Source of the DNA: a virus
Virus record (IMG/VR): IMGVR_UViG_3300032287_002166
Coordinates: 1 to 30,529 of that record
Length of the DNA: 30,529 bases
Direction: 5' to 3' (one strand)
In this document: positions 1,994 to 19,260 of the stretch, in pieces
Numbering within the stretch: the stretch's first letter is position 1
Layout of the letters: the number at the start of each line of letters is the position of its first letter
Program-made: the position numbers and the translations under genes
The notes under the pieces: model-generated
What the model was told of the DNA's origin: nothing
The model's input: only the letters and a program-made list of their open reading frames with translations
Database searches by the model: none

Positions 1994-4885
1994 TCAACCA
2001 CCAGGAACAGCGATCACTTTGAGCGATTCAACACTTGGAACAACTGTTGGATCTTCAGCCGTTAAACGAATCTTAACTGCAAATTGCTTAAAGGTTCCGC
2101 CTAATGGCATTGTCTTAGATCCATCGAAGTATTCAATCTTGCCCTTTGTGAGAGAATGACGATACTCTAGCGAAACTCTCTTTGTTAAATCTGCAGAAGT
2201 ATTATCGCGCGACTTTGTCATGAGCTGCCATTTCTTGGTGATGAATGGATCAGAATCAAGAGCAGACAAGACCTTAATATAAACTTGAACATCTGTTCCT
2301 GCTGGCTTAATTGCATCTAGACGAATTATCAAGTCTCCAGAATCAAATCCATCTTCAAGAGTGACGATCTTTGTTTGATATTTTGCTAGGATGTTGCCAC
2401 CAGTTGAATCTGTTTCGCCACTAATCACAGCAGTGGCGTTTGATCCAACTCCAGCTTCCGCAATTGTAATCGTTGGAGTTGTGAAATATCCAGATCCTGG
2501 ATTAATAATATTAATTGCAACAACTTTGCCAGAAGATAGAAGCGCTGGTGTAACGTTTGCAGTTGCTCTATTCGATCCTACGTCTGGGGCACTAATAGTG
2601 ACAGCAATATTTGCTGCATTACTATGAGCGCCAGGACTTGTGACAGAAATTAGATTGTTTGCAATACCAGCATTATTGATAATATTCTGAAGTGTAAACA
2701 AATTCAAACGTTCGAAGTTTAGAATTGGTGAAATACGATCATCAGAAGTTGTCATCGTAACTTTGACATTAATAGATGCAGTGTTACCTGCTTTAATTAA
2801 TCTGCGGCGGCGAGTAGATGCACTTGAAATATTAAGATCTTTACCGAAGTTGTAGATCTCATTATTGTTCAAACGAATATAATCTGTGGCAGTTCCATCT
2901 GTCAACAATGTCTTCACTTCATAAGTGATAGAAGTTGGAGAGAATTGCTGCTCAGTAGAAGAAATTTTAACCATATCAAATACTGAGTTTGTGGAGAAAT
3001 CAATCGCAGTTCCAGTTGTCTTTGGATTCAATTCGAAGAATACAGTATTTGAACTGCTGTATGATGCTCTATTGATTTGGAACATCAAATCTTGATTTAG
3101 AATTGGATTCCAATTTGAGGCATTTTGAGCCTTGAAGAAGTTTCCAATATATGGCTGCTCAGAAATACGGCGAATGTTTCCAGAAGAGTCTGTGTATTCT
3201 TCACCAAGAGTTGCAGTCCAAACTTGATAATCACCAGATTCAGTGATTAGTTTGATTGCATACTCTGTTTCTGGGAGAAGATAAACTGGATCTGTGAATG
3301 TAAATCTTGTAAGGGTACTTGCATTTGCCAATGCTGGCGTATTTGAGGTTTTGATCAATGCTGGCTCAAGAGTTTTTGAGGCAATGATATCATTTCCAGG
3401 CAACCCACTCACTACAGGTGAGATTGCAACTGTAAATGGCAACAATTCTTCAGCATTTGTTGGTTTAGTCTTAAAGAATAAATCAATAGAAGTGATGTAT
3501 ACACCAAAGGCATTCTTCACTTCACCATTCAAAACTTGATTTGATCTTGGAGTGAAGAACGTTTGAGCCATAAATTTACGATCATCAACTTTTGATGTTG
3601 TTTGTGTGACTCGTTCTGGTGCACGTGCAGTGCTTGGTGATTGTTCACGCAGCACAATATTACGCGCATTCTCAACAGTATTTGTCTTACCAAGAGCAGT
3701 ATACTTTGCAACCGCTCTCATTTTATATGCGTTGTCGTTGTGTGTTGCAGTGTCAGTTACAGTAAACACACGCTCGCCAGTTAGCCAGCGAAGATTATTT
3801 TCTGATGGGATATGGAAAATGCCATAGAAACCACCGACATCATTAACCTTGTGCGTTCCAATTGAATACACTGTATTTGATGTGCAATGTTCTGGTAATG
3901 TTGTATCTAAAATTGCTTCAATGCCACCAGCAGCATTATTAGCAACAGTTCCAACAACAGTCGCTTTAAAGCCCATGTTTGTTCCAGAAACAATTGTAAT
4001 GCTGTTTCCAACAAGCGTTGACAATCCATCACGAGAAATATTGTTTGTTGCAATTACAATAGAACGAATTGGGCTGTTAGCAGTATTTGCTCCAACAACA
4101 ACACCAGACAATCCAGTGTATGCATTTGCAGCAGCGATTGTCAAAGTTTGAGATGAAGAGGTTGTTACTGTTTCACCAGCTGAGAAGCGATTATTGCCAT
4201 GAATATATGCAGCATCTTTAAGCGTGATATATCCATTTGTCAAGTTCCAAATACGATTTGTTGCTGCGTTTGTTAACGCTGTGTTGCATGCTCCAAGAAT
4301 TGGATCGACAACAAGAACACCGTTTGATGCATCGATCAACTGCCAGCTCTTGACTTTAGCCAAGAAATTATATTGTGGTTGTCGAACTCCTGTATAGAGA
4401 TCGAAGTAGAAAATTAGATTGTCAGGAGTTTGATAAATCAAATCTCCAGCACTATAATCGTTAACAGTTAGATCTGCAGAACCGCCACCCTTCTGAACTC
4501 GAATACTCAAGAAGTTATCATTAATATAAAGAAGGTTATCAGTTGATGTTAATGCGGATCCAAGAACTTCAGCATATGCCTTTGAGGTTGATCCATACAA
4601 TCCTTCATTAATTCTTAACGAAGAAAATGCAGTATTTGAAGTCACATTAATATAAGACGCTCTTTGACAAAAATCATTCACACGAACTTCATCGAAGAAA
4701 ATACTCGCATCGTTACCTGGTTTTAAATTGGTAATTGCAAAGTTAACATCATTTTCTCGAATAAATGGTGCAAGACCAGTCGTTGATCCAACTGTGATTG
4801 GATCATCTCGATCGATAAATCGAGGCAATTCAGCCTCTGCTGAACCGATGCGTGGTCTATTTCTTAAATGAACGGGATTGCCCAT
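1994..4885 (-). CDS. Large virion structural protein, tail/baseplate associated
   Basis: This 963-residue protein is of the kind found beside the DUF4815 gene in marine T4-like phages. I recognise the context more than a defined family. The N-terminus (residues 1-60) is an ordinary soluble domain with RPRIGSAEAELPRF. Much of the rest is beta-rich with many NTA/TNT stretches. Residues about 788-828 contain a glycine-tyrosine module (NPGSGYFTTPTITI followed by GVGSNATA) that also occurs in gp6, gp7 and gp8 here. The C-terminal 140 residues look compact (KKWQLMTKS, FDGSKTMPLGGTFKQFAVKI). A Shine-Dalgarno-like AGG lies just before the ATG. It follows the DUF4815 gene by 14 bases. It may be a peripheral baseplate or fibre-connector protein, which is an inference from position. 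Confidence 0.65.
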   Translation of the reverse strand: MGNPVHLRNRPRIGSAEAELPRFIDRDDPITVGSTTGLAPFIRENDVNFAITNLKPGNDASIFFDEVRVNDFCQRASYINVTSNTAFSSLRINEGLYGSTSKAYAEVLGSALTSTDNLLYINDNFLSIRVQKGGGSADLTVNDYSAGDLIYQTPDNLIFYFDLYTGVRQPQYNFLAKVKSWQLIDASNGVLVVDPILGACNTALTNAATNRIWNLTNGYITLKDAAYIHGNNRFSAGETVTTSSSQTLTIAAANAYTGLSGVVVGANTANSPIRSIVIATNNISRDGLSTLVGNSITIVSGTNMGFKATVVGTVANNAAGGIEAILDTTLPEHCTSNTVYSIGTHKVNDVGGFYGIFHIPSENNLRWLTGERVFTVTDTATHNDNAYKMRAVAKYTALGKTNTVENARNIVLREQSPSTARAPERVTQTTSKVDDRKFMAQTFFTPRSNQVLNGEVKNAFGVYITSIDLFFKTKPTNAEELLPFTVAISPVVSGLPGNDIIASKTLEPALIKTSNTPALANASTLTRFTFTDPVYLLPETEYAIKLITESGDYQVWTATLGEEYTDSSGNIRRISEQPYIGNFFKAQNASNWNPILNQDLMFQINRASYSSSNTVFFELNPKTTGTAIDFSTNSVFDMVKISSTEQQFSPTSITYEVKTLLTDGTATDYIRLNNNEIYNFGKDLNISSASTRRRRLIKAGNTASINVKVTMTTSDDRISPILNFERLNLFTLQNIINNAGIANNLISVTSPGAHSNAANIAVTISAPDVGSNRATANVTPALLSSGKVVAINIINPGSGYFTTPTITIAEAGVGSNATAVISGETDSTGGNILAKYQTKIVTLEDGFDSGDLIIRLDAIKPAGTDVQVYIKVLSALDSDPFITKKWQLMTKSRDNTSADLTKRVSLEYRHSLTKGKIEYFDGSKTMPLGGTFKQFAVKIRLTAEDPTVVPSVESLKVIAVPGG

Positions 4886-4899
4886 ATTTTTCTACCTAA

Positions 4900-7800
4900 T
4901 TAGAATTCTGATGATACGTCAGAGTTTAATAATGATAACGTTCCGCCACCAGCGGACAAGGAATTATTTAAATTCCATCCTTCAAAGTAATTAATATTAT
5001 CTATTAGCGCAGGATTAGTGTCCCCAGTCCAGTTTGAATTCAATGCTGTAAATGGATTAAATCCTGCTTGATAGATATTTAACGGTTGAGTATAGATTGG
5101 TTCAAAGTCTGTTGGCAAATTGGTGTATGCTGGAACAGGAATTGTATACTGATTTTGCACTTGTTCGCTTGATCCGCTTACAACATAATCTGCAGACTTG
5201 AAGTATCCACCGCCACCAATTTGTTGAACATATGTTTCGTCAATAACTTGATCTTCTTCTTTTGGTTTTTGCGGAACATCAACTTTTCTACCAAATGCAT
5301 TCAGAACTTCTGGTTGATGTTCAAGAGAATAGAAGTAATCACTTTCAGGTGTTAGAGCTGCAAACCCTTCGAACTTCGCAATAATTGCAGTCTGAACAAT
5401 TTCACTCTTTGTATTGGTATACAAACTCTGGCTCACCATTGATGTTTCAGTAAATGGTAGAGTTACAAACTTATCGCGAACATTTGTTGCAAATGGTGTT
5501 TTTGGCGACAGAGCATAGTTTTTAATGTCTCTGAAGCAAGATAACAATCCATTTTCAATTGAACATGCAAAATCATTTGACATGTCAACGATTGTCATAT
5601 CATTAAATTCATCAACAATTGTTCCATAGATTGGCTTATTAATTGTTGGTGTTTCTGGTGATTTTGGTGGATCGTTAATGACTTCGCTTTCTGATTCCTT
5701 CAACTTAACATATTCTTCAATTGCCTTTACTCGATCATCGATACGAGCAATATCCTTCATTGTGTATCGACGGTTTTCAATGAAACGCAAGTCAATTGAA
5801 CGAACAGAGGCAGTATACGGTGGAATGTACATCGTATAGATTGCCATTGAGTTTGTATCTTCAAATGGTTCTTGTGGAACTAGTGATGGAATTCCTGAAA
5901 GAACCTTAAACTCTTTATCCTTTGTTACAACCAACTTGTCAATACGTGGCAAGTAGAATTCATAGTCCAATTCCATTGAATCGGTTGGACGTTGAATAAT
6001 ACCACCAGTCAATTGAAGATTTGGTGTAATGATTTCGATGTGAGTGTTTGTTGCTGCAGCAGTAAATGGTGCGCTTACAGTTACTGCTGTCGCATTGATA
6101 ACTGCATTTACAGTGCGCATCTGACCATTAACCTTGATCATAGTTCCAGTAACAACTGGTGGCGCAAGAACATTTCCGCTTAATGATAGGTTTGCTGTAA
6201 CAGTATAGCCACCAGAAGAAACATTAACTCTGGCGTTGACGTTTGTCTTAAAGTATGGATCAACGACAAGACCAGAAGAGCGCAATGGGCGCATATCGAT
6301 GGAATCTCTAAGATTTACAAGATCGCCCTTTGAATTTTTATAGATTGGAATTTGCTCAGTTTCATATAACGTATTTGCATATGACTTGGCTGAGAGATAT
6401 CCAGAGCCAGAGTGTGTGAAGTAATCAAGAAGAACTACTGTCTGACCAGATGGAGGTTGTGCGCCTGGACGCAAAACAATTGATCCATGATCATAATATC
6501 CATCGCGCTGACCGCTATCAAACGCAAAACGCTCTGTAATATCAACCATGTTCGTAGTATTTGGAGCATGAGAAACATTTGCTGAATCATAAACCTTATT
6601 AATTCGAACGACGTCTGATAAGAACAATGATTGTTTCACATCTGGAATTTTGCTAACAACGTTTGCGCTTGTAAACCAAACAATGCCGTTTGATGAATTA
6701 ATTAGCACTTCAGAGAAACCAGTAACTGCTGTTGCTGATGCAAGAGTATCATGGACAGTTAGAGCAGCATTTGATGCTACAAGAGATTTAACTCGACGAT
6801 AGTTACCATTCGCATTTGTGATTTGTGTTGTTAAGTAGACGTCACCAGTGAATGAAGCACCTGATCCGTTATTAGTATAAATTGTGATAGATTGATCAGA
6901 AGTTCTGAATACGTTAGCAGCTCCATCTGTTAAATCGCGAATTGTTCCTGTGTTTGCACCAGAAGTTGGAACAACAATGATATTTTCTAGAATATCCGCA
7001 TCAGAAACAAGTTGTCCATTAGTTCCAAAATCAAATGTTTCGCTTCCTGTCAAACCAATCGTAATTGCACCATTTGAAGCAAATGATTGATTGCGGAGAA
7101 TATATCTTCTATAGAAATCGACACTCGTATCACTATCCCATTTGATGTAATCATTTGGAAGTCTGAAGACCATGCTGTCATATGAAGCGTCTTGAATAGA
7201 TGCTGCTCCGAGAGCATCTTTGCTTGTTATTGCAACATTTGCTTGTAAATTTGCAGTAGCAAAGGTGCTTGGGTTTGGAACGATAAATGCATTTGCAGTT
7301 GCAAGAGGCATTGAAATAGAGATCTGATCGCCAGAGACTACTGTTGACTTAAAATCTTTATCTACAACAGCAACTTTCGTTGAACCATTATAGTGAATAA
7401 TTTTTGCTGAGTTTCCGACTGCGCCAGTTGTGTTTACCAGCGTCACAATACCATTTACATATGCATTATTTACTGGTGAGAAATACGATGCAAGGTTCAC
7501 TGATTTTGTATTTTCAGCATTTGCGACGGTAACTGTTGTGATTGGTTGGAAATCAACTTCAGTTAAGTATGTGAAGTAGGTTGTCGTTGCACTTGTGCGA
7601 TCAAAGTTACGAATTCGAGCAGTACCAATTCGTGTAGCATAATAATTTGCTGTATTGCCATTCAATACAACGCCGTTATTTGCAACGCAGTGTATATCTA
7701 CCTTCTCGAGACCGCCAGCAAACACAACACCATTTGCACTACCAAAGACATTGTTCAACTGAATTCTATTTCCATAGAATATGCTCAAGTCATAATCTTT

Positions 7801-8841
7801 GCTTGAACGAGTTGTTCTTGCTCTTGTTGATGGAAGTTTAACTGTTCCAACTGTTTCGTATTCAAATCCGCGCACATAGCCCTTTCCTGGCTCAACATTA
7901 ATAATAAATGTTGATGTATTTTCAGCCGCTCCAATTGGAGTATTTGCTGACAGATTGACACGGAATGGTTTTACAACATAGTTTCCTGACTCATCGAAGG
8001 TGCGGCGCGCAAGTGTTTTTTCTAATTCTGAATAAATTGGATAACTTACTTGTTTTGTAACCACTCCATTTTCTACACGAAGCAATTCAAAGAAACGACG
8101 ATCATCAATCGAGTCAAGTGTTCTCTTTGTGAGATCTAAACTGAACTGATAACGATGCGCACCAGGAGCTTGATAGTTAAATGATTCTTGAGCTGGGTCT
8201 AATAATGCATTGTCGATCGACTCTGTGATAATTTCATCGTTGATTTGCAAACCAATACGATATGTTGGTGCGCTTGAATATGAATCTAGAACGATCGTTT
8301 GTGGAGCAACTCTAACGAAGAATCCATCGACGTAGAAAATGCCTTCGTTAATTGAAACAACAGATCCAGTTCCAGTTGCATTTGCAGAAATAGTGTTTGC
8401 AGAAGAACCACCCGCAGTTGAGATCGTTTGTGTGGTTGTGAACGAACTTCCTCGTAGATAACGAACAAGAAGAGTTCTATCTGTTGTCGAAGAAAAGGTC
8501 TGAATTACTTTTGCACGAGTTTTTGGACTACCTGAATTGAATACTGTAAGACCAATGAAGTCTTCTAGGTCAATATCGATACCGTTAAACTGTTGTTCAA
8601 GTTTAACATAACTGATTCCAGTGTCGAGCGTTAAGTGCCCACCGATAACTGGTGAGCCATCTTTGAAGATATGATCGCCAAACTGTTTGATCTGATTTTG
8701 AAGGATCGACTGAATCTGGGTTAATTCGCGAGCCTGAACTGCATATCCTGGACGAAACAAGATGCGCATGTAGTTTTGCTCAAACGCACCATTTGTCGCC
8801 TCAAAATCGTCCCAATATGGTTCTGCATTAAAATCTGCCAT
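4900..8841 (-). CDS. DUF4815-type baseplate/tail structural protein
   Basis: This 1313-residue protein begins with the hallmark of the DUF4815 family of marine T4-like phages: PYWDDFEA, then ILFRPGYAVQARELTQIQSI, then LQNQIKQFGDHIFKDGSPV within the first 70 residues. The long middle is beta-rich with many N/T/A stretches. Residues about 884-938 carry a small module (GTMIKVNGQMRTVNAV followed by TVSAPF) also seen in gp7, gp8 and the 655-residue protein. Residues about 1030-1075 (RFIENRRYTMKDIARIDDRV and onward) are helical and charged. The family is found in virions but its role is not established. Position after gp8 suggests a peripheral baseplate or fibre-network part. T4 itself has no obvious counterpart. 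Confidence 0.8.
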   Translation of the reverse strand: MADFNAEPYWDDFEATNGAFEQNYMRILFRPGYAVQARELTQIQSILQNQIKQFGDHIFKDGSPVIGGHLTLDTGISYVKLEQQFNGIDIDLEDFIGLTVFNSGSPKTRAKVIQTFSSTTDRTLLVRYLRGSSFTTTQTISTAGGSSANTISANATGTGSVVSINEGIFYVDGFFVRVAPQTIVLDSYSSAPTYRIGLQINDEIITESIDNALLDPAQESFNYQAPGAHRYQFSLDLTKRTLDSIDDRRFFELLRVENGVVTKQVSYPIYSELEKTLARRTFDESGNYVVKPFRVNLSANTPIGAAENTSTFIINVEPGKGYVRGFEYETVGTVKLPSTRARTTRSSKDYDLSIFYGNRIQLNNVFGSANGVVFAGGLEKVDIHCVANNGVVLNGNTANYYATRIGTARIRNFDRTSATTTYFTYLTEVDFQPITTVTVANAENTKSVNLASYFSPVNNAYVNGIVTLVNTTGAVGNSAKIIHYNGSTKVAVVDKDFKSTVVSGDQISISMPLATANAFIVPNPSTFATANLQANVAITSKDALGAASIQDASYDSMVFRLPNDYIKWDSDTSVDFYRRYILRNQSFASNGAITIGLTGSETFDFGTNGQLVSDADILENIIVVPTSGANTGTIRDLTDGAANVFRTSDQSITIYTNNGSGASFTGDVYLTTQITNANGNYRRVKSLVASNAALTVHDTLASATAVTGFSEVLINSSNGIVWFTSANVVSKIPDVKQSLFLSDVVRINKVYDSANVSHAPNTTNMVDITERFAFDSGQRDGYYDHGSIVLRPGAQPPSGQTVVLLDYFTHSGSGYLSAKSYANTLYETEQIPIYKNSKGDLVNLRDSIDMRPLRSSGLVVDPYFKTNVNARVNVSSGGYTVTANLSLSGNVLAPPVVTGTMIKVNGQMRTVNAVINATAVTVSAPFTAAATNTHIEIITPNLQLTGGIIQRPTDSMELDYEFYLPRIDKLVVTKDKEFKVLSGIPSLVPQEPFEDTNSMAIYTMYIPPYTASVRSIDLRFIENRRYTMKDIARIDDRVKAIEEYVKLKESESEVINDPPKSPETPTINKPIYGTIVDEFNDMTIVDMSNDFACSIENGLLSCFRDIKNYALSPKTPFATNVRDKFVTLPFTETSMVSQSLYTNTKSEIVQTAIIAKFEGFAALTPESDYFYSLEHQPEVLNAFGRKVDVPQKPKEEDQVIDETYVQQIGGGGYFKSADYVVSGSSEQVQNQYTIPVPAYTNLPTDFEPIYTQPLNIYQAGFNPFTALNSNWTGDTNPALIDNINYFEGWNLNNSLSAGGGTLSLLNSDVSSEF

Positions 8842-8857
8842 GGATGCTACCTATTCT

Positions 8858-10480
8858 TTAAAATTCGACAACTAATTTGACGGTTTCTGTCTGATTCGGG
8901 GAACGAATGATTGGTGATTTGTTCTCAATAAACAACACTTCCCCAGTGAAGATATTTATATCGGGTTCTGTCACAGAAAATACTCGTGCCGCTGCTGAGG
9001 GATTATCTTTTTCGTAAATAGTTTCTGAAACAATCTGAGAGACGTTTCCGACAATACGATTAATATACAACGTATTTGTATTATTATCGAAGTGAATTAC
9101 TCGGGCATTAAATGTAGATGTTTCAAAACTAGATCCAAAATACACGATTTGTCCGTGATCAAAGTCTACAGGTGGATTTGATACTTGCAAAGAAGTATAC
9201 GTCGGGTGTACCGTAGAAGTTGCATACACACCGTTTGCCAGTTTTGGGTCTTTAATAATCGAAATTTGTCTAACTTTCTCAGTTCCGTCGCCCTCTGTTG
9301 GAAGTAGACCATCCAGATCACCTTCAAAATCGACGCTGATCATTTGATCAGAACCACCAAGTTCTCTTACTGGATCAAATCCATGACCATATCTTGGTGA
9401 GATTACTGCTCTGAGATTTGCGGTATTACCCACAAGAGTTTGAATTGTGTCGTCGACGGTTATTGTTGCTGTGGTATAAGTGTTACCACCGTCGATAATA
9501 TTGATATTTGTAATTACACCATTTGTAACATCAACAGTTACATTAGCGCCCACACCATCACCCGTAACATCGACAATAGCGTAGTTATTAACAGAACCAC
9601 CAGAGAAATACCCAGAACCACCGTTTATAATCTGGACAACATCGATACGTCCATCATCAGCATTTTCGAAAACAATTGGTTCTCGAATCACTGGCATGTA
9701 TTTGTCTGTGAAAAATTTATTTTTTAATCCGTTAGGGATTGTGTACATATACTTCCACTTATAACCATCAGAGGTTTCAATAAATGGATTTTCAGGTAAC
9801 TGCCCACCAAGTGTGATTTCTGGCATAACAGTTGAGTTTGCTCCGCTGTTATTGTCCATACACTTAAAGACTTGATCTGCGATATTTCTAACGTAAAACT
9901 TGTTTGCGTATTGCGTTGTGGTTGTTACAACCTTGTACAAGTTTGCATTTGTATAAGCAGATAAGAATGGAGTATTTACTGTCAACGAATTGCCAGATAC
10001 ATGAATATTGGACACTTCTTTTGTTTCTTCTCCGATGCGGATAAGAGATCCAACGGTCAATACTGGATTTACGGATGCAAGATTGAGCGTTGCTGAATTG
10101 ACAGTTTGAAGCGTTGAGATGGAAACATTTACGTTCCCATTATATTTTGTTTCTGTTGATTTCGTGAATGTGTTTAGCGTGTGATCGTATGGAACATAGA
10201 CTTCCGTGTTAGCCCAATCGACTCTTGGAATCACAGGCTGGACGTCATTACTTGTTATTTTTACCATTACTAGACCATCTCTAGCAATCCAATTTTTCAT
10301 ATCAACAGTGTCATATGGATCTGGCACTTCTGAATCGTCATATAGTTCAGTATTTGAAACATTTGACCATGGAATTGCTCGTCCCATTAGAATGTACACA
10401 TTTGCTAACGGCAACGAAATCATCTTCTCAAAATTGATGGCGTTTGCAATTCCGAAATCTTTTGTGATAATTGAAGGCAT
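8858..10480 (-). CDS. 8: Baseplate wedge protein gp8, enlarged
   Basis: gp8 is a wedge subunit that binds gp7 and gp10 in T4. The match to T4 gp8 is clear at both ends. Near the N-terminus are NVYILMGRAIPWSN and VIPRVDWANTEVY, in the middle FIETSDGYKWKYMYTIP, then VRQISIIKDP. The extreme C-terminus is GEVLFIENKSPIIRSPNQTE, followed by a short beta strand. It has 540 residues against 334 in T4. The extra length falls in three insertions: residues about 118-184 (an RIGEE / LTVNTPF / LYKV module), about 282-345 (a GGSGYF / GVGANVTV / NTYTTATITV module) and about 425-500. The gene lies between gp7 (3 bases upstream) and the DUF4815 gene (16 bases downstream). The weak Shine-Dalgarno GGA fits the chosen ATG. 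Confidence 0.9.
   Translation of the reverse strand: MPSIITKDFGIANAINFEKMISLPLANVYILMGRAIPWSNVSNTELYDDSEVPDPYDTVDMKNWIARDGLVMVKITSNDVQPVIPRVDWANTEVYVPYDHTLNTFTKSTETKYNGNVNVSISTLQTVNSATLNLASVNPVLTVGSLIRIGEETKEVSNIHVSGNSLTVNTPFLSAYTNANLYKVVTTTTQYANKFYVRNIADQVFKCMDNNSGANSTVMPEITLGGQLPENPFIETSDGYKWKYMYTIPNGLKNKFFTDKYMPVIREPIVFENADDGRIDVVQIINGGSGYFSGGSVNNYAIVDVTGDGVGANVTVDVTNGVITNINIIDGGNTYTTATITVDDTIQTLVGNTANLRAVISPRYGHGFDPVRELGGSDQMISVDFEGDLDGLLPTEGDGTEKVRQISIIKDPKLANGVYATSTVHPTYTSLQVSNPPVDFDHGQIVYFGSSFETSTFNARVIHFDNNTNTLYINRIVGNVSQIVSETIYEKDNPSAAARVFSVTEPDINIFTGEVLFIENKSPIIRSPNQTETVKLVVEF
8953..8960 (-). promoter_or_regulatory. Candidate T4-type late promoter TATAAATA inside gp8
   Basis: The minus strand reads TATAAATA exactly, matching the T4 late promoter -10 box. 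It lies in the last 35 codons of gp8, about 112 bases before the DUF4815 start, and would give a transcript leader of roughly 105 bases. Its position within a coding region (codons for DINI) means it could be chance. Confidence 0.4.
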
Positions 10481-10483
10481 TTT

Positions 10484-13400
10484 TTATCCGTTAGTTCTAA
10501 TTATGCTATAACCAACTACATTATAAATTGGAGTTTTACGATATAAAACGTTAGCGTTAGCAAGACCTGTTGTTGTGTTTACTTGAATAACATTACCAGA
10601 AACGCCAATTACTTCTTTTCTGTATTCAGTACCAGATATATTGAAACTGATGTTATCACCAACTTCAATACTTTCGCCGACAGAATATGTGTTGCCATAT
10701 ACAAATACGTTTGCATTTCCAGAAACAATTCTCACTCTTCCGTCGCCAATTCCACCAATTGCTGATTCTAGCCAAATAATGTTGTTAGATACAACGTTTG
10801 TGACAATACGAGAATATTGTTTCTGAGAAGCAGTTTCTGTACTATTTATGATGATTATATCACCAACATTCACATTACTCAAGAAGGCAGATGTGTTACC
10901 ATATACGATGTTGCTCGTATAACTTGTATTCACGTTTGTAGTTCCAATAGAATTTTGAGTAAATGTATTACTTTTAATTGTGATGATATCGTCTTGTGTG
11001 TCTTTAATGACAAATTTAGATTTCAGATCCATTCCAGCTGGATGCGCAAGACGGAAAATAGTTTCTTTATATTCGTCTAATGATTTCTCTGATTGAATCT
11101 CATAAGAGAAATTGTGATAATAATCTTTATCTTGCAGTTTCTTGTCAGCGCTGATAAATCCGTCTGTGTTCAGATAGAATCCATCATACTTGATCAAACC
11201 AGCCAAGAATTCTGCGTTGGCTTTCGCCTTACCGTCACCATAAAAGTGTGGGTATTTTCTCTCAACAGCATCATTAATACCAAGGAATGATATGATTGCA
11301 TTTTGCGTTGATAGATTTACTGTAACATTTCCCGTTGCAGTATTAATATTTAATGGGAGAGAAGTGTTAAGCAAGCCATTATAGTCATAAAGGCGAACTA
11401 CTGTATTTGTCCCATCTGGTCTAAACGACGCATCAACAATAGCAGAGAATGTTGAGTTTGCATTTGAAGCCACGTTTCCTTGCCAAACTCTATTTCCTGC
11501 AATAACAACAGATGCTGGTGGTAGATTATCTGTTAGAATATCCACGATCTTGAGAGAAACATTTGGTGTTGCTTCGTAGTCAAATCCACGACTAATAATT
11601 GTAAAGTTTTCAATACGTCCAATGTCTGATGTTTCTGCAGTTAGTTCTTCACCATCACTCAATCCAATAACTTCGAATTCAGCATCTGATCCTAGTGATA
11701 AATTTGCTCCTGTTGAATTCCAAACTCTAATTGTTGGCATTGCAACATAACCTTCACCACGATTTCCAAGATTAACTGCTACAATTGATCCATTTGCACC
11801 AGTTTGAATTGTTGCTGTCCCACCATACCCAGTTCCAACAAATTCAACCATATCGCTATTGCTATAGCCAGTACCACCTTTCTTAACCAAAATAATACCA
11901 ATCTGACCTGTGTTGCGGACATTTTGGCGGAAGTCCATAAACAATCTAAAGCGAAGAATATTCGTTGAGTTGATGTTATTTTCAAATGCTCTGTCAAGGT
12001 ATACTGTCTTAACATTTGCAGATGTGCCTGGATTTGTTACAACATAATCAACGACATTGGCATAATGGTCAGTTTGACCAACATCTAGGAACAATCTACA
12101 GCCAGTATAAAAGCCATTTGCCAAACTATAAGAAGAATTTGATGAACTCAAACGAATAGATGGATATGGCAATCCTGTGCGATTATATCCCGAGAACTGA
12201 CCCGCAGGAATAGACATGAATCCTTCATCGATTGAATAGTCAGTATCAAAGACAGAAATGGTTTCGAATGTTGGTGGTTCTTCAAAGAACGACCCGCCAT
12301 CTTCAAGAAAAACAGAGCGAATTGCACCAAGAGTGATTGAGTCGTATGTAAATGCTCGACCAATTTGAGTTTGAGCATTTGCAAAAATCTTTACATTACT
12401 TGTTGCGTTTGGAGCAGTTCCAAGTGCGGTTCCAAGAGTTGCAACTTTAGTTGTACCATTGTAGTCAGTAATCGTTGCTCTATTTGGAGATCCGCCGACA
12501 CCAGTTCCACCTACGATCTGAAGAACATATGAGTTATAGTAATCGTCAGTTGAACTTGCTAAAAATGTAGCAGTGTTTAAGTTAACAGTTGTTGTACTGT
12601 TACCAGAACCTGTTGTTAAATTAATAACGCCAGGAACATTGTCAAAATCGTAACCATTGCTCGAGTTGATTGCAATGTCTCGTTTGTAGACAATTGCATC
12701 TGTGCAAAATGAAAAGTTGTTCGCGTTTGCTGGAATATCATCCCAAATACGATCAACAATAACATTTGCACCAATACCAGTATTTGAATTGATACGAATT
12801 AAAGAATTCGCAAATTCTCTAAAGTAATAACCTTTTCCAGTGACACTGACCGAATCAATTGTACCAGTAGAAACATTGTTTACAACTGCAATTGCCTTTT
12901 CTGCTTCTGGGGTGTCAGCCAATCCACCAGCAAATACAACTGGATCGCCAGATTTATACCGACGACCTGTCTGAACAATTCCCAATCTATTTCGGAATAA
13001 TCTTAGATTAGAAATTAGAGAAATAATTTTTGATCTAAACGTCTGAGTGTCGCCATTCTCATCAACGTAATCAATTAAAACATATTCACCAGCTTCGAAT
13101 ATACGAGTTACATTTGAAACATATAACTCAATAATTTCTCTACCTGTTTCTTTATCAATTGATCGTATTGCTCTTTCAATAATAAAAGAAGTACGAGATT
13201 CTTCACCAACGCCGCGACGACGTTCTAATAGATTAATATCAAATCCAGAATATTCGCTTGGAGTAACTTTGTATAATTTCTCAGAATTAAATGTCTGAGT
13301 TTCATATGTTTCTAATGCAGTATTGTAAACATTTGCAAATGGAATTGAGACTGTTAAAAACAATCCTTGCGCATTCACATTTTGGACAAGACGCTTTTCT

Positions 13401-13957
13401 GTACCAATATGAATAAATGAATTTGATGTGATTCCAGCAGAAACAAGATTAAATCCGTTTGCTGTAACTGTATTCGCAGTAACTGCAAACACATTAACAT
13501 TTCCACCCTCGACTAATGTGAGAGTGTCATTGAATGCTAGACGCAATGCTTGTGGAAGTTTCCATTTACCATCAGATGCACGAAGAACATCTTGTTTTGG
13601 AAAATAAATTTCAATTTCTTGATTATAAAGAACTCTAAAAAGAAACTTGAATGAGTCTGGAGTGCCCTTTATAGAGTAAAATTCACGTGATGCCTTAATG
13701 ATTTTTTCAGGAGAAAGTTCAGTGCTATCTGGGAAATTTGGAATAAACTTGCCTTTGATATACTTAATCAAATCATCTCTTGTTGTATCAACATCCATGA
13801 AATCATAGAGTTTTTTACCAACATCAAGAGTTTTATTGGATTGTTCCATATATTCGTAATACTTCTTGAGAAGCGTTACGAATTTTGGGTGATCTGCAAC
13901 TATAAAGTCAGGAAGCTGACTTTCTACAATTGTTGAAATGTAATTATTTGCAAACAT
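10484..13957 (-). CDS. 7: Baseplate wedge initiator gp7, rearranged
   Basis: gp7 nucleates wedge assembly in T4. Residues about 5-125 match the C-terminal third of T4 gp7, including a helical lead-in (HPKFVTLLKKYYEYMEQ) and then the block FYSIKGTPDSFKFLFRVLYN followed by QEIEIYF. A second T4-like block, FRLAHPAGMDLKSKFVI, appears near residue 967. In T4 these blocks lie close together. Here about 830 residues of beta-rich modules separate them, and the large N-terminal half of T4 gp7 is absent. Glycine-tyrosine modules occur near residue 375 and at about 690-806. Residues 985-1157 are a further pair of small modules. The start codon overlaps the gp6 stop by one base. Confidence 0.85.
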   Translation of the reverse strand: MFANNYISTIVESQLPDFIVADHPKFVTLLKKYYEYMEQSNKTLDVGKKLYDFMDVDTTRDDLIKYIKGKFIPNFPDSTELSPEKIIKASREFYSIKGTPDSFKFLFRVLYNQEIEIYFPKQDVLRASDGKWKLPQALRLAFNDTLTLVEGGNVNVFAVTANTVTANGFNLVSAGITSNSFIHIGTEKRLVQNVNAQGLFLTVSIPFANVYNTALETYETQTFNSEKLYKVTPSEYSGFDINLLERRRGVGEESRTSFIIERAIRSIDKETGREIIELYVSNVTRIFEAGEYVLIDYVDENGDTQTFRSKIISLISNLRLFRNRLGIVQTGRRYKSGDPVVFAGGLADTPEAEKAIAVVNNVSTGTIDSVSVTGKGYYFREFANSLIRINSNTGIGANVIVDRIWDDIPANANNFSFCTDAIVYKRDIAINSSNGYDFDNVPGVINLTTGSGNSTTTVNLNTATFLASSTDDYYNSYVLQIVGGTGVGGSPNRATITDYNGTTKVATLGTALGTAPNATSNVKIFANAQTQIGRAFTYDSITLGAIRSVFLEDGGSFFEEPPTFETISVFDTDYSIDEGFMSIPAGQFSGYNRTGLPYPSIRLSSSNSSYSLANGFYTGCRLFLDVGQTDHYANVVDYVVTNPGTSANVKTVYLDRAFENNINSTNILRFRLFMDFRQNVRNTGQIGIILVKKGGTGYSNSDMVEFVGTGYGGTATIQTGANGSIVAVNLGNRGEGYVAMPTIRVWNSTGANLSLGSDAEFEVIGLSDGEELTAETSDIGRIENFTIISRGFDYEATPNVSLKIVDILTDNLPPASVVIAGNRVWQGNVASNANSTFSAIVDASFRPDGTNTVVRLYDYNGLLNTSLPLNINTATGNVTVNLSTQNAIISFLGINDAVERKYPHFYGDGKAKANAEFLAGLIKYDGFYLNTDGFISADKKLQDKDYYHNFSYEIQSEKSLDEYKETIFRLAHPAGMDLKSKFVIKDTQDDIITIKSNTFTQNSIGTTNVNTSYTSNIVYGNTSAFLSNVNVGDIIIINSTETASQKQYSRIVTNVVSNNIIWLESAIGGIGDGRVRIVSGNANVFVYGNTYSVGESIEVGDNISFNISGTEYRKEVIGVSGNVIQVNTTTGLANANVLYRKTPIYNVVGYSIIRTNG

Positions 13958-16026
13958 TAATCAATAGTCTTTACGTTAACACTGATTGATGAGACATCTT
14001 CGTCATCAATTGTGATAATGCGGCTTCGTGCAGATTCAAAATTATTTGTATCTGGTTTGCCAACAATTCTTAAAATCTTTAGAGGATCTTCAATTGCAAC
14101 TGGATCAAACTCTCTCAAAGTGATTGTTCCTAACTTATAATCAATTGTTCCAGCCTCTGGATTCAGAACTGTCTTTACGTTATTATCGTCAAAGAAGAAA
14201 CTACGAAGAATACCATAACGACCTTGAAGAACAGGATTAAAATTGCCAGTTCCATCAAATTCGTCTTGATAATACATTGTCACAGTTGCTGTGGTATAAT
14301 TGATGCCAGGATTATCTACGACAATCTCAGTAATTCTACCATTCACAACAATCGGATATGCATTGGCACCGAATCCATCTCCAACAATTGATAGAGTTGG
14401 TGGAGAAAGATAAGAAGTTGGTGCAGCAACAATCTCAATTGCTTCAATGCCAGAAGATGTTCCAGGTGTTTCTTCTAAGAAACACTTACGAAGAGCACCT
14501 TCTGAATCAAATTTTGTGAATGCGGGAGTTGAGTAAATTCGATATTTTGGATCTTCTCGAGATAAAGATGTGCCGAAATTCAATGTATAATTTCTTGCAG
14601 CTCCAACTTGTGGGACTAATCTCTTTTCAATCGTTGCAATCGCATCGGAATAGTTGATAGAGATATTGGAGTCGTCAATATATCGAAGCAGCTTCGATAG
14701 TTTAAATCGACTGTTGAAATTGTCGAGGTCTGCATTCTTGTAAGCGACAATTGCATTTCGAACAGTCGCAGAAATTCCATCTTGCGAAAGGTTTGTTTTC
14801 GTTGGATCGTAGAACACTTCTGCAAAAATATTGAGATAGTTGTAATCCACATCAACAAATTCTGGAATAACAGTGACAACAGAAACTGGTTTAATAACTT
14901 CGTTGATAACAGTTAGTTTTTCTGATTCTGTAATTTCATATCCATTGCTTGGTTTTGCAGCAATATAAACTTTACCATAAACTGGCGGAATATTCTCTTC
15001 ACCACCCCAAACATTCACTGCTTCGAAGTATGGATAGTTGCGATTGATCAATGCAATGATATCGTCTTTTGTGACACCACGATTGTTAGATGCAAATGAT
15101 TTTGTTGCAGCGTATCTAACACGCTCAAGTGCTTCTACTGAAGATCCACCAGCAGCAGCAACTTGAGGGTAAACAATCGCATTTGTAAATCCACCCACAG
15201 GCTGAACCAGTGTAAATGCATTTGCTTTATTGGCTACTGCACCATCTGTTTTAAGATAAGTGATGATCACAACGTTTCCGTTTGTGAGAGATTTACCAAT
15301 TACACCATCACCGAAATAGATTTTATACTTGCCTCCACGTACCTCATCTAGAAAATACACAGCTGATGTGTTTGATGTTGAAGTGGCTTTTGGAGCAAAA
15401 ATATATTTCTCAGAACGCAAACTTGTTAACGATTCTTGAACAATTACTTCTAAAGATGCGGTGTCAATTCCAGCGTCTGGAAGTTCGAATCCCTGTTCTG
15501 GATTGCTTGTGGAGTCATAGGTGAACGTATATGATAGAGGTTGACCTTGATAGATGTATAAATCGTCGAAACAAAAGCGATTACAGGTTTGATCATAGGT
15601 TGCAACAGCCGTAGTACGATTCACGAACGTATAAGACGTTGAATCGATGGCTTCAGATTGCAATCTAGTATATTTTGGGAGAGTTAAAGTAGTTTGTGTG
15701 TTACCTTGTGGGCGAAGAATCTGTAGATTTATCTTTGCACGCGCAGAAGTAGCAGAAACAGGTGTGTAACCAAGCATTTTAGCGTGAGAAACGACTGAAT
15801 CACGTAAAAGAGCAGTGTCGAGGAACATTTCGTTGGCGATCATGTTATTGTAGAACGCCATATAGTGTGTATTGTACGCTAAAATGTCAAGAAGAACGTT
15901 GATTCCAGCAGCTTCGAAGTCAAAATCGCTAAATTCTTGTTGATCTCGAAGAAAATTCTTTAAATTAGTCTTAATATCGCTGAAATCGAGTTCAGAAATC
16001 GTTAATTTTTGGTCAACATTAGCCAT
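13957..16026 (-). CDS. 6: Baseplate wedge protein gp6
   Basis: gp6 forms the ring of wedge dimers around the hub. This protein has 689 residues against 660 in T4. The N-terminus has the family pattern: NLKNFLRDQQEFSDFDFEAA, then LLDILAYNTHYMAFYNNMIA, then NEMFLDTALLRDSV and MLGYTP. Residues about 230-420 form the baseplate J-like core (YKIYFGDGVIG, ERVRYAATKSFASNNRGVTK, then YPYFEAVNVWGGEE). Residues about 528-585 carry the small glycine module (GDGFGANA, then NPGINYTTATVTM) shared with neighbours. It starts one base inside the end of gp25 (TAATG arrangement), so translation is probably coupled. Confidence 0.93.
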   Translation of the reverse strand: MANVDQKLTISELDFSDIKTNLKNFLRDQQEFSDFDFEAAGINVLLDILAYNTHYMAFYNNMIANEMFLDTALLRDSVVSHAKMLGYTPVSATSARAKINLQILRPQGNTQTTLTLPKYTRLQSEAIDSTSYTFVNRTTAVATYDQTCNRFCFDDLYIYQGQPLSYTFTYDSTSNPEQGFELPDAGIDTASLEVIVQESLTSLRSEKYIFAPKATSTSNTSAVYFLDEVRGGKYKIYFGDGVIGKSLTNGNVVIITYLKTDGAVANKANAFTLVQPVGGFTNAIVYPQVAAAGGSSVEALERVRYAATKSFASNNRGVTKDDIIALINRNYPYFEAVNVWGGEENIPPVYGKVYIAAKPSNGYEITESEKLTVINEVIKPVSVVTVIPEFVDVDYNYLNIFAEVFYDPTKTNLSQDGISATVRNAIVAYKNADLDNFNSRFKLSKLLRYIDDSNISINYSDAIATIEKRLVPQVGAARNYTLNFGTSLSREDPKYRIYSTPAFTKFDSEGALRKCFLEETPGTSSGIEAIEIVAAPTSYLSPPTLSIVGDGFGANAYPIVVNGRITEIVVDNPGINYTTATVTMYYQDEFDGTGNFNPVLQGRYGILRSFFFDDNNVKTVLNPEAGTIDYKLGTITLREFDPVAIEDPLKILRIVGKPDTNNFESARSRIITIDDEDVSSISVNVKTID

Positions 16027-16442: not shown

Positions 16443-18410
16443 TTAGCAAGGTTTAGCGCATGGATCTTCTGGAACATTGACATCTGGATCACGATCATCG
16501 ATATCAACATTACTTTCTGTTCCAGTATCTGGACCGTTGAACTGACCTGGTAGACCAATTATAGTATCAGAGCCATTAAACGCACCAGTTGCGGCAATTG
16601 CAGTATTTGAATCAGCAACTGGTGAAGTCACTGAATCTTGGTTAAACTCACCGTCGAAGTCATCTAGAGTATCGATAAAATTTCCTGTTGTGGCATCACA
16701 TCCATCTTCTGGAGCATATGGCACAATAATGACATTTAGATAATCATCAGAAGATGTGTCACCCTTGTTTCGTTTCTTCTTACCGCAAGACAATGAGAAG
16801 AGTTTGCCTAATGCGTTAACGAAGTTCTTAACGTTTTTAATAATTTGTTTATCTCGCGCGATGACTGCTTCAAGATCATTTCTAACATTTAAGAATCTAG
16901 AAATAGCTCCATTAACTGCAGTTGTTACCTGCGCCTCGCTTAATCCGCGAAGTTTAGCATCGTTAAGTTCATACTTCATTCGCTTTAATGCGTCTTTAGC
17001 ATCTTGCAATAACTCTTTCTTAAAGAGTGCTTGCGCAGCATCGGTAGGATTTTCTGTTGCAACAGAGGTGTATTTTCCATTCGCAAGTCGGACTTTAGAT
17101 GTGACCCCCTTCATGAAGTTAGGATCACCAGTCATTGTTTCAATCATCGTAAAGCCATTAATGATTTCGTCTGGATCGATATCTTCACTAAATCCTGATA
17201 CTTCAATTTCATTATTAACTTTGTAGACTGCGAAATTCTTGGTTAATCTGAGAGTATCATCAACCTTTATGGTCGTATCTGTCAATTCTTCAACGAAGAA
17301 TTCTCTAGTATCGTAGATAATCTTATCCCCAACTTCCAGTTGAGTTAGCCACGAAGTTCCGTTGCCAGTAATTGTATCATCCAAGCACTCTGAATTTGCA
17401 ATAAACGCAGATTTAACATAAACTGTTTGGTTTGTTTTCGTTGTGGTGAATGCGCTGTTTACGATAAATGATGTTTCTTTAAATAATTGCGCTCCAGTTA
17501 CAGAATTATCGAACGCAACATCTACTGTTAGGTAATCTCCAGCGGAGTTAATTGATTCAATTCGTCTAATAACATTGTTTACAGTGATGAACATACTTGA
17601 ATTGAGATTAATTGTTCCCGATACCGACAGTAAACAATTTAACAGATTCAGCGTTCCTGTGCTTGCAGTTATTACCTTCACATTATTGGTAGAAACATCA
17701 ACAGAGACTGTGCCAGAAGCATGGGCAGTAAATACCTTTTCTGTTACAATCTTAGTTTGTGAGTCAATGATAATTGTATCGCCATAATCAACTTTAGGAT
17801 ATGCCGTTGCGTATAAATTTGGCGTTACAACATTGCTAGACGCAATGCTTACAGAAGCACCAACAGAAACAACATTACCATATAAAGGAACCAATTCATA
17901 AGCCATAGTAGACTTTACGCCAGAGAGTGCGTCAGTATGGTCTCTAAAATTTTGCAAACTCGCTTGAAGTGATGAATTTTGCGCAATTGTTGCCAATCTA
18001 CCGAGAGTAAATGGACCAATTTGATAGTTATCAGCAAAGTTTTGCGCGGCTCCAAGAGATGTTTCTAGTGCATCAAATGTTGCTTGAATACTACCAACTC
18101 CATTACCTGCGAGGTATGGGAATGTTGATTTTAATCCTGCATAATCATTACCAATATAGCCATCAATTTCATTATTAAGAGATTCAAATGGTGATGCTAG
18201 TGCTTTATCTAGAGGATCAAGGACAGTGTTCTTAAATTCTTTAAATGCATCAACAAGTGGATTTCTAAAATATTGTTTGAAAAAATTGGAAACAATGTCG
18301 GCTCTCGAATCAAACCATTTCTTCATGTCAATAAGAAATTTACCAAATTTAGTTGATGCGAAATTCAATCCACCATTTTTGACAAATGGAATGGGAACGC
18401 AGGAAAACAT
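16443..18410 (-). CDS. Unidentified 655-residue tail/baseplate protein
   Basis: The protein is large and soluble-looking, and I cannot assign it to a T4 gene. Residues 1-120 are helical (FGKFLIDMKKWFDSRADIV, LVDAFKEFKNTVLDPLDKAL). Residues about 190-400 are beta-rich and hold three copies of a small module, the clearest at about 337-396 (GNGTSWLTQLEVGDKII, FFVEELTDTTI, then YKV). Residues about 430-560 are helical and charged. A short cysteine/lysine-rich stretch (LSCGKKKRNKGD) precedes an acidic tail. The ATG at 18408-18410 is chosen over a TTG one codon upstream. Neither has a good Shine-Dalgarno. The frame stays open further upstream over a hydrophobic stretch, so the true N-terminus is uncertain. 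Position before gp25 suggests a hub or wedge role. Confidence 0.65.
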   Translation of the reverse strand: MFSCVPIPFVKNGGLNFASTKFGKFLIDMKKWFDSRADIVSNFFKQYFRNPLVDAFKEFKNTVLDPLDKALASPFESLNNEIDGYIGNDYAGLKSTFPYLAGNGVGSIQATFDALETSLGAAQNFADNYQIGPFTLGRLATIAQNSSLQASLQNFRDHTDALSGVKSTMAYELVPLYGNVVSVGASVSIASSNVVTPNLYATAYPKVDYGDTIIIDSQTKIVTEKVFTAHASGTVSVDVSTNNVKVITASTGTLNLLNCLLSVSGTINLNSSMFITVNNVIRRIESINSAGDYLTVDVAFDNSVTGAQLFKETSFIVNSAFTTTKTNQTVYVKSAFIANSECLDDTITGNGTSWLTQLEVGDKIIYDTREFFVEELTDTTIKVDDTLRLTKNFAVYKVNNEIEVSGFSEDIDPDEIINGFTMIETMTGDPNFMKGVTSKVRLANGKYTSVATENPTDAAQALFKKELLQDAKDALKRMKYELNDAKLRGLSEAQVTTAVNGAISRFLNVRNDLEAVIARDKQIIKNVKNFVNALGKLFSLSCGKKKRNKGDTSSDDYLNVIIVPYAPEDGCDATTGNFIDTLDDFDGEFNQDSVTSPVADSNTAIAATGAFNGSDTIIGLPGQFNGPDTGTESNVDIDDRDPDVNVPEDPCAKPC

Positions 18411-18481
18411 CAAGGCTAATGTCTGCAGTAATGGTAATCCTCCGATGAGACAGAGGATGATTTTGATGATTTTACTTAAAC

Positions 18482-18724
18482 TTATGAAAGCGGCATACCT
18501 CTAATCAATTTGTCTATGATGTCATTACCATAAACTTTTCTATAGTGTTCTTCAGTATCTTTTGCTTTTTGCATTGCGCCAAGATATGTTTTATGGGCTT
18601 CTATTCTTTCTTGCATATTATTTCTGATCAAAAAGATTTTATCTTCTTCAGAAAGAGGTATCAATTTTACCATTTTATCTTCAAGCATTTGAAGAGTGTG
18701 TAATGCATTAATTTCCATACACAT
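18482..18724 (-). CDS. Small unidentified helical protein
   Basis: This 80-residue protein is charged and predicted helical (TLQMLEDKMVKLIPLSEEDK, then ERIEAHKTYLGAMQKAKDTE). It has no signal peptide or membrane segment. A second in-frame ATG two codons downstream is an alternative start. No strong Shine-Dalgarno is visible before either. It begins 5 bases after the preceding stop in the minus-strand tail operon, which supports a tail assembly or minor structural role. I do not recognise a family. Confidence 0.55.
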   Translation of the reverse strand: MCMEINALHTLQMLEDKMVKLIPLSEEDKIFLIRNNMQERIEAHKTYLGAMQKAKDTEEHYRKVYGNDIIDKLIRGMPLS

Positions 18725-18729
18725 ATTTA

Positions 18730-19260
18730 TTAGAATCCATTAAGCCTAATTTGAGTCTTTTCGGTTGTTGTAGTGGTGGTATTAGGAGTTGCATTACTCA
18801 ATGGTGAAGCGATATTTGCGGCTGCTCCTCTATCCGCGCTAGAATCTCTGGGTGGAACTACTGAACTAAAAGTTCTAATATTTGGTGGCAATTTAGGCTG
18901 TTCTCCATTGAGAATTGCTTGGATAATATTATTTGCAATATCAGTGTAGGATTCTGTTGGAAAACTAATTGAAACATTAGGTCTTCCATTTTCAAATGTG
19001 ACTATAGAATTAGCCCCAGTCGTTATTGGTAAATATTGAGAATTGTCCTCACCTTGCAAAATACGAAAAGTAGTTTGTTGTTCAGTTTCTTGTTGCACCT
19101 TTGGTGAGAATGCATCTCCTGGAGCAAATGGTGCAACAGAAGGCACATAAGGCGCTATTTCATCGCCAAGGTTATACACACCATTCGCCGCAAAGTTCTC
19201 GCCAGATAATTCTGCCTTTACTCGTTGCTGACGGCGTAAAATTTCTATTCCTGATCCCAT
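18730..19260 (-). CDS. Unidentified 176-residue tail protein
   Basis: I do not recognise this protein. The N-terminal 20 residues (GSGIEILRRQQRVKAELSG) are helical and basic. The middle is proline- and alanine-rich (YVPSVAPFAPGDAF), and residues about 85-130 look folded (SFPTESYTDIANNIIQAILN). The C-terminus is a low-complexity linker with a run of seven threonines before a short tail. The start ATG directly abuts the gp5 stop with no spacer, so it is probably coupled to gp5. Its place between gp5 and the wedge genes fits a hub tip, a connector or a minor structural protein. Confidence 0.6.
   Translation of the reverse strand: MGSGIEILRRQQRVKAELSGENFAANGVYNLGDEIAPYVPSVAPFAPGDAFSPKVQQETEQQTTFRILQGEDNSQYLPITTGANSIVTFENGRPNVSISFPTESYTDIANNIIQAILNGEQPKLPPNIRTFSSVVPPRDSSADRGAAANIASPLSNATPNTTTTTTEKTQIRLNGF

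Follow-up and report, generated by a model that had tools for sequence, protein, structure and literature searches.

A repeated glycine-tyrosine module in baseplate wedge and VrlC-like proteins of a T4-type virus, and its possible kinship to domain I of the T4 sheath protein gp18

Why should several neighbouring proteins of one phage baseplate carry the same small glycine- and tyrosine-rich repeat, and what might that repeat do? The question is raised by IMG/VR record IMGVR_UViG_3300032287_002166, the whole of which (30,529 bases; hereafter the window) was analyzed. A T4-type baseplate cluster lies on the minus strand of the window and encodes gp25, gp6, gp7, gp8, a 1313-residue protein that is DUF4815/VrlC-like, and a 963-residue protein. 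A sequence-only reading had described one beta module of 40-60 residues in gp6, gp7, gp8, and the 963-residue protein, and had proposed that it was duplicated and moved between neighbouring genes, enlarging gp8 and gp7 compared with T4.

The host proteins gp6 and gp8 are T4-type wedge proteins, as indicated by matches to 5hx2 (E 7.9e-41) and 1n7z (E 1.3e-10), respectively. The AlphaFold2 model of gp8 overlays T4 gp8 with a VIA-align Z of 23.1, and that of gp6 overlays T4 gp6 with Z values of 22.9 (5iv5) and 23.2 (3h2t). Window gp7 scores above the cut-off of the Pfam family Baseplate_wedge and shares with T4 gp7 a short motif only (64% identity over 28 residues), which spans gp7 residues 90-117 (window 13607-13690, minus strand) and T4 gp7 residues 731-758. 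T4 Gp7 has been reported as absent from pelagimyophages and cyanomyophages (PMC7029224); a gp7 remnant may be common despite that report. The two VrlC-like proteins match separate parts of phrog_358 (2,056 positions), the 963-residue protein at 1233-1589 and the 1313-residue protein at 6-877, and full-length relatives of the latter fall into size classes of ~1,150-1,560 and 1,890-2,360 residues, as if one VrlC-type gene were split in the window and whole elsewhere. When the whole window proteins were searched against the PDB with phmmer, the matches were relatives of the host proteins only.

A 38-position profile, iterated over the open reading frames of 80 related IMG/VR contigs, describes the repeat as a unit of ~38 residues with the pattern GxIxxIxIxxGGxGYxxxPxVxI...GxGAxA (GY unit). 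Each unit runs strand, turn (GGxGY), strand, turn (GxGA), strand, and two units in tandem make up one domain of ~75-90 residues. The pattern is present at every place named by the sequence-only reading, whose observation of recurrence is thus borne out. The register it gave is not: the repeat reads G-x-I...GGxGY...P-x-V-x-I...GxGAxA, and the stretch originally delimited therefore covers ~1.5 units, a two-unit domain taken out of phase. The copies are listed in Table 1 together with their host proteins. Two units each are found in gp6 and gp8; gp7 has three near-full units and two halves, and in the 963-residue protein a clear unit is accompanied by a degenerate one. The degenerate unit and the half unit at gp7 544-564 are additions to the original description; the latter gives no significant match with the single-unit profile alone and was recognized by hhalign, with E values of 1.4e-6 and 1.1e-4 against the gp6 and gp8 modules. 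When every one of the 116 six-frame stretches with at least 60 residues was scanned, no further place came up with a stretch E below 0.5.

Table 1. Positions of the GY modules, their host proteins, and the second module M2 in the window.
Feature	Residues	Window position	Strand	Basis
gp6, baseplate wedge (GY host protein)		13957-16026	-	
gp7-like, baseplate wedge (GY host protein)		10484-13957	-	
gp8, baseplate wedge (GY host protein)		8858-10480	-	
1313-residue protein		4900-8841	-	phrog_358 match
963-residue protein, VrlC-like, phrog_358 part (GY host protein)		1994-4885	-	
GY module in gp6	units 526-561 and 563-594	14245-14451	-	profile; hhalign; AlphaFold2; absent in 5/5 outgroup gp6
GY module in gp8	units 277-318 and 321-361	9398-9652	-	profile; hhalign; AlphaFold2; overlay on T4 gp18 99-186
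GY units in gp7	684-716, 723-753, 780-802 (half unit)	11552-11908	-	profile; hhalign; gp18 domain I profile kinship
Single GY unit in gp7	365-401	12755-12865	-	profile and hhalign, weaker
Half GY unit in gp7	544-564	12266-12328	-	hhalign
GY module in 963-residue protein	738-828; clear unit 786-822, degenerate unit ~745-780	2402-2674	-	profile; hhalign
M2 in gp8		9929-10141	-	
M2 in gp7		13319-13507, 10757-10942, 10538-10741	-	
M2 in 1313-residue protein		6034-6234	-	
M2 in 656-residue protein		17214-17858	-	

Because the iterated unit profile was trained on the window itself, the tests that count are those between separate gene families. Hhalign comparisons of this kind gave E values of 2e-19 for the gp6 and gp8 modules, 1.3e-15 for gp8 and gp7, and 1.8e-13 for gp6 and gp7; the module of the 963-residue protein matched those of gp7, gp6, and gp8 at 2e-9, 3.6e-8, and 2.1e-7. 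Across 264 control comparisons, in which 66 other segments of five proteins (90 columns each) were set against four module profiles, the lowest E was 2.9e-4. Of the two weakest gp7 copies, near residues 375 and 550, the former was detected at 2.8e-7 with the gp6 profile and at 3.1e-7 with the gp8 profile. Single-unit profiles made from the relatives of one gene recognized copies in other genes with scores reaching 25.5 bits, whereas the highest score among 800 locally shuffled decoy proteins was 10.5 bits; some cross-gene matches lie near decoy level, such as the gp8 profile on gp7 (1.5-8.9 bits). In addition, PHROG_438, the gp8 family, matches window gp6 at 523-599 (E 8.2e-7). The columns conserved between genes are Gly, Tyr, and Ala. 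With cross-gene matches above the controls, the copies in gp6, gp7, gp8, and the 963-residue protein are homologous, as had been supposed.

The best control match came from residues ~270-315 of the 963-residue protein (window ~3941-4078, minus strand), where the segment starting at residue 271 matched the gp7 module at the E value given above and the adjoining one, starting at 226, at 4.3e-4. This region, counted here as a control, may be another degenerate GY unit.

Structure prediction points in the same direction for the gp6 and gp8 copies. The models have mean pLDDT values of 82.6 for gp6 (37 alignment rows) and 88.5 for gp8 (43 rows). In the two copies the order of predicted strands is identical, and secondary-structure states agree at 86% of 74 sequence-aligned residues, whereas the highest agreement among 5,355 slid pairings was 72%; a common fold is therefore most likely for this pair. 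In gp8, residues 279-360 are modelled as seven strands of 4-12 residues and a helix at 291-294.

How old is the sharing? In gp6 the copy is a module-sized insertion, and the same site is empty in all five outgroup proteins (T4, HTVC008M, S-P4, S-RIM32, and RHph_N34), in keeping with the proposal of an inserted module. The gp8 module also occurs in HTVC008M and P-RSM6 and is lacking in T4 gp8. Counted at E < 0.1 with a profile trained on the same open reading frames and with near-identical contigs kept in, two units are present in 51/51 gp6 and 80/80 gp8 relatives, while 61 gp7 relatives carry 2 to 7; in the family of the 963-residue protein (n = 22), 0, 1, and 2 units are found in 3, 17, and 2 members, and in that of the 1313-residue protein (n = 48) in 28, 12, and 8. 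When copies of 0.75-1.5 times the length in the window were kept (gp8 60/68, gp7 46/55, gp6 45/45, 963-residue family 18/21), 167 of the 169 had their closest counterpart in the same gene of a different phage. In a tree with 104 copies (100 of the 169 after thinning, plus four reference copies), many of whose forks are unresolved, the copies group by gene with three changes, the minimum possible, compared with a mean of 54 after shuffling. Copying between genes is thus old. These counts and the gene-wise tree lead us to reject recent copying between neighbouring genes; the evolutionary account first proposed is borne out in part, in that the copies are homologous and the one in gp6 is a clean insertion.

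The suggested enlargement of gp8 and gp7 by the module likewise holds in part. Since T4 gp8 has no GY module, the module explains some of the difference between the window and T4. For gp7, protein length and unit number are uncorrelated (r = 0.03, 61 proteins), and we reject the idea that it grew by gaining GY units. The length classes of gp8 depend on a second module, M2, which is unrelated to GY and was recognized from the similarity of gp8 112-195 to gp7 148-230 (hhalign E 2.6e-12; E 2.5e-8 in an own-genome search). After iteration, two more copies were found in gp7 and others in the 1313-residue and 656-residue proteins. Among 80 gp8 proteins, those with no M2 copy have 435-470 residues (49 proteins), those with one have 527-552 (23), and those with three have 666-679 (8), giving three classes of ~440, 540, and 670 residues without overlap. 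M2 copy number sets the size classes of gp8; M2 enlarges gp8 in the manner ascribed earlier to GY, while being another module. It is a second shuffled beta-barrel module, and its best structure overlays are barrels of phage tail and tailspike proteins (LKA1 gp49, Z 9.3; JBD30, Z 8.0).

Having established the repeat and its history, we asked whether the GY module belongs to a known domain type. No family was assigned to the module regions of the host proteins in a Pfam scan (E up to 1) or against NCBIfam (E up to 0.1). In structure comparison, gp8 280-360 overlays T4 gp18 99-186 (72 aligned residues, rmsd 2.6, 19% identity) with a VIA-align Z of 6.3, which is below the level that VIA-align calls safe and, at ~6, can reflect a common arrangement; gp8 279-361 overlays the KP1 sheath protein at 98-187 with Z 6.0. 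No other outstanding match was among those listed for gp8 280-360, a result that excludes no fold. A two-unit profile built without T4 sequences matched gp18 102-159 at E 0.0012 (search size set to 200); of the 22 T4 structural proteins searched, no other fell below E 0.1. An alignment of gp18 domain I (23 sequences) was matched by the gp7 module at E 7.1e-7, with 68 columns aligned, and by the pooled profile at 7.1e-4; the E values were 0.013 for gp6, 0.023 for gp8, and 0.058 for the 963-residue protein, and the strongest among 66 controls reached 6.6e-3. In a blind scan of 174 segments of the 22 T4 proteins, the gp18 region ranked first for three of five profiles (gp7, gp6, and pooled), with gp7 nearly three orders ahead of the next protein; the gp8 and 963-residue profiles placed segments of other T4 proteins above gp18. 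T4 domain I and the window gp7 module also converge on one stretch of PHROG_26741, matching it at 260-312 (E 6.9e-5) and 263-326 (E 8.7e-4), respectively. Taken together, the signal of kinship to gp18 stands above controls for the gp7 profile, is weak for the gp6 and pooled profiles, and is not seen with those of gp8 and the 963-residue protein. These data support, short of proof, the view that the GY module is a remote relative of gp18 domain I, a link that is uneven among the copies and comes mainly through gp7.

The two domains are alike in size (~90 residues) and in the alignment of their signature turns; domain I is inserted into its host protein, as is GY in gp6, and the gp8 model, which overlaps domain I structurally, suggests a beta barrel plus helix for GY as well. 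They differ in that gp18 domain I sits on the sheath and GY in wedge proteins. Searched with tblastn, T4 domain I is found in 1,376 records, the ten commonest name groups of which are enterobacterial, Aeromonas, or Acinetobacter phages. A review reports that gp18 domain I is a six-stranded barrel with a helix, that it protrudes and makes no inter-subunit contacts, that it binds the baseplate and retracted long tail fibres, and that the substitutions G106S, S175F, and A178V inhibit fibre retraction (PMC3004832). With T4 gp18 numbered without its Met, G106, S175, and A178 all fit the sequence and lie in the turns PGSNY and SSGLAAV, of which the former aligns with GxGY and the latter with GxGA. 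With E values of up to 10 allowed, the Pfam model of the domain, PF22639 (Gp18_dom_I), was listed for none of the four module regions of the window; among 30 module sequences it was listed once, with E 0.055 and below the curated cut-off of 27 bits. The copies are therefore not filed as members of the family. Within an open-access library, neither PF22639 nor its name turned up in a paper, and among the titles listed none connected the sheath domain with the baseplate wedge. As a domain type, gp18 domain I is known already and has a Pfam model; new are the GY copies in wedge and VrlC-like proteins, which lie outside the PF22639 listing.

Ig-like domains are common to various phage structural proteins. 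Like GY, they are small beta accessory domains reused across virion proteins (PMC9230969), and phage tail proteins are known to share domains in general (PMC10684548). No Ig-like Pfam family was assigned at E up to 10 to the module regions of the four window genes or to the 30 module sequences. A profile search, as the sequence-only reading had suggested, showed the GY module in many other phage structural families, including tail fibre families: PHROG_438, 2885, 701, 460 (head closure), 4406, 19630, 5342, and 1922 carry the same module in different host proteins, and their annotations do not name it. PHROG_460 (head closure Hc2, profile 231-301) was matched from all four window genes tried. 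T4 gp14 showed a half-unit trace only (E > 1). Beside gp8, cyanophage P-RSM6 encodes a 614-residue protein with about five GY units (17753-19594). A synthetic consensus query against phage records gave no match, probably because the low-complexity filter of BLAST was on. Among 177,635 PDB sequences, searched in one direction, the two-unit profile matched residues 434-517 of Dpo31 (E 5.5e-5), a tailspike of the marine podovirus Carin-1 (PDB 28lx, 28mg, and 8ck1). Residues 434-536 are described as domain D3*, with an Ig-like fold, protruding from the beta-helix core and soluble when expressed alone (PMC13317679). Three stretches of the profile match D3*, which is an inserted domain and is described as protruding; unlike the window copies, it lies within the beta-helix of a depolymerase spike and is called Ig-like by its authors.

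What, then, might the module do on the baseplate? The reading we prefer, tentatively and at a little short of an even chance, is that GY is an accessory domain akin to gp18 domain I and may act as an exposed protein-docking knob. Two 38-residue units would together fold into one small barrel of beta strands, carried as an insertion by gp6, gp7, and gp8 of the wedge and by the 963-residue VrlC-like protein. Most likely a remote relative of gp18 domain I, the domain would by that kinship face outward, and its two signature turns would hold another virion part, either a folded-back fibre or an outer baseplate layer. We propose this from the properties of gp18 domain I and from the retraction mutations in the aligned turns; exposure and docking are what we infer by analogy, and a place on the outer face would follow from gp18 domain I and Dpo31 D3*. 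Most conserved residues are Gly, Ala, or Tyr, which a fold requires, and conservation of the signature turns does not by itself mark them as binding sites. A bolder version, which we consider rather unlikely, makes GY a single transferable docking knob of T4-type phages, placed on the sheath in T4 relatives, on wedge and VrlC-type proteins here, and on neck and spike proteins elsewhere, with the signature turns forming the fibre-holding site.

Three rival readings compete with the docking proposal. The likeness to gp18 domain I may be convergent, GY being an unrelated repeat in a world where GGxGY repeats and small barrels are common; a Z of only about 6 and the failure of the gp8 and 963-residue profiles to rank gp18 first favour this, yet sequence and structure signals, obtained independently, converge on a single 90-residue stretch of one T4 protein, and we think convergence improbable, if not strikingly so. 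Alternatively, GY may merely brace or thicken a larger, perhaps double-layered baseplate by packing on neighbouring subunits, binding nothing specific. The unvarying place and copy number of the module in the gp6 and gp8 proteins of all relatives, its presence in several proteins of one assembly, and the two-layered baseplate predicted for pelagimyophages and cyanomyophages on account of VrlC (PMC7029224) would all suit such a role, which we nevertheless hold to be rather doubtful, given the reported lack of inter-subunit contacts of gp18 domain I (PMC3004832) and a copy number that changes freely among relatives of gp7 and of the VrlC-like proteins. That constancy in gp6 and gp8 is, on the other hand, unlike a fast-evolving adhesin, and so argues against the idea that GY is a weak sugar-binding accessory domain whose many baseplate copies provide loose adhesion to the host surface, much as has been proposed for phage Ig-like domains. 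The idea draws on the relative in the depolymerase tailspike Dpo31, for which a distant resemblance to sugar-binding domains of the Ig-like type has been described (Z 2.9 and 2.8; PMC13317679), on the adhesion role proposed for extra sheath domains (PMC9230969), and on the occurrence of the module in tail fibre families; the conserved Gly, Tyr, and Ala come without the conserved Trp or acidic cluster expected at a sugar site, and we regard sugar binding as quite unlikely.

Our findings join unannotated repeats of aquatic-phage baseplate, neck, and spike families to two solved domains, gp18 domain I with its fibre-retraction mutants and D3* with its soluble expression alone, and these links make directly testable the role of a module that is very common in the baseplates of phages from marine and fresh waters. 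They also identify a second module, M2, as what accounts for the size classes of gp8. Given its probable remote kinship to the knob that holds the folded-back tail fibres of T4, GY may be a reusable docking part; if the reading of a transferable knob were true, the position of the knob would set where the fibres park.
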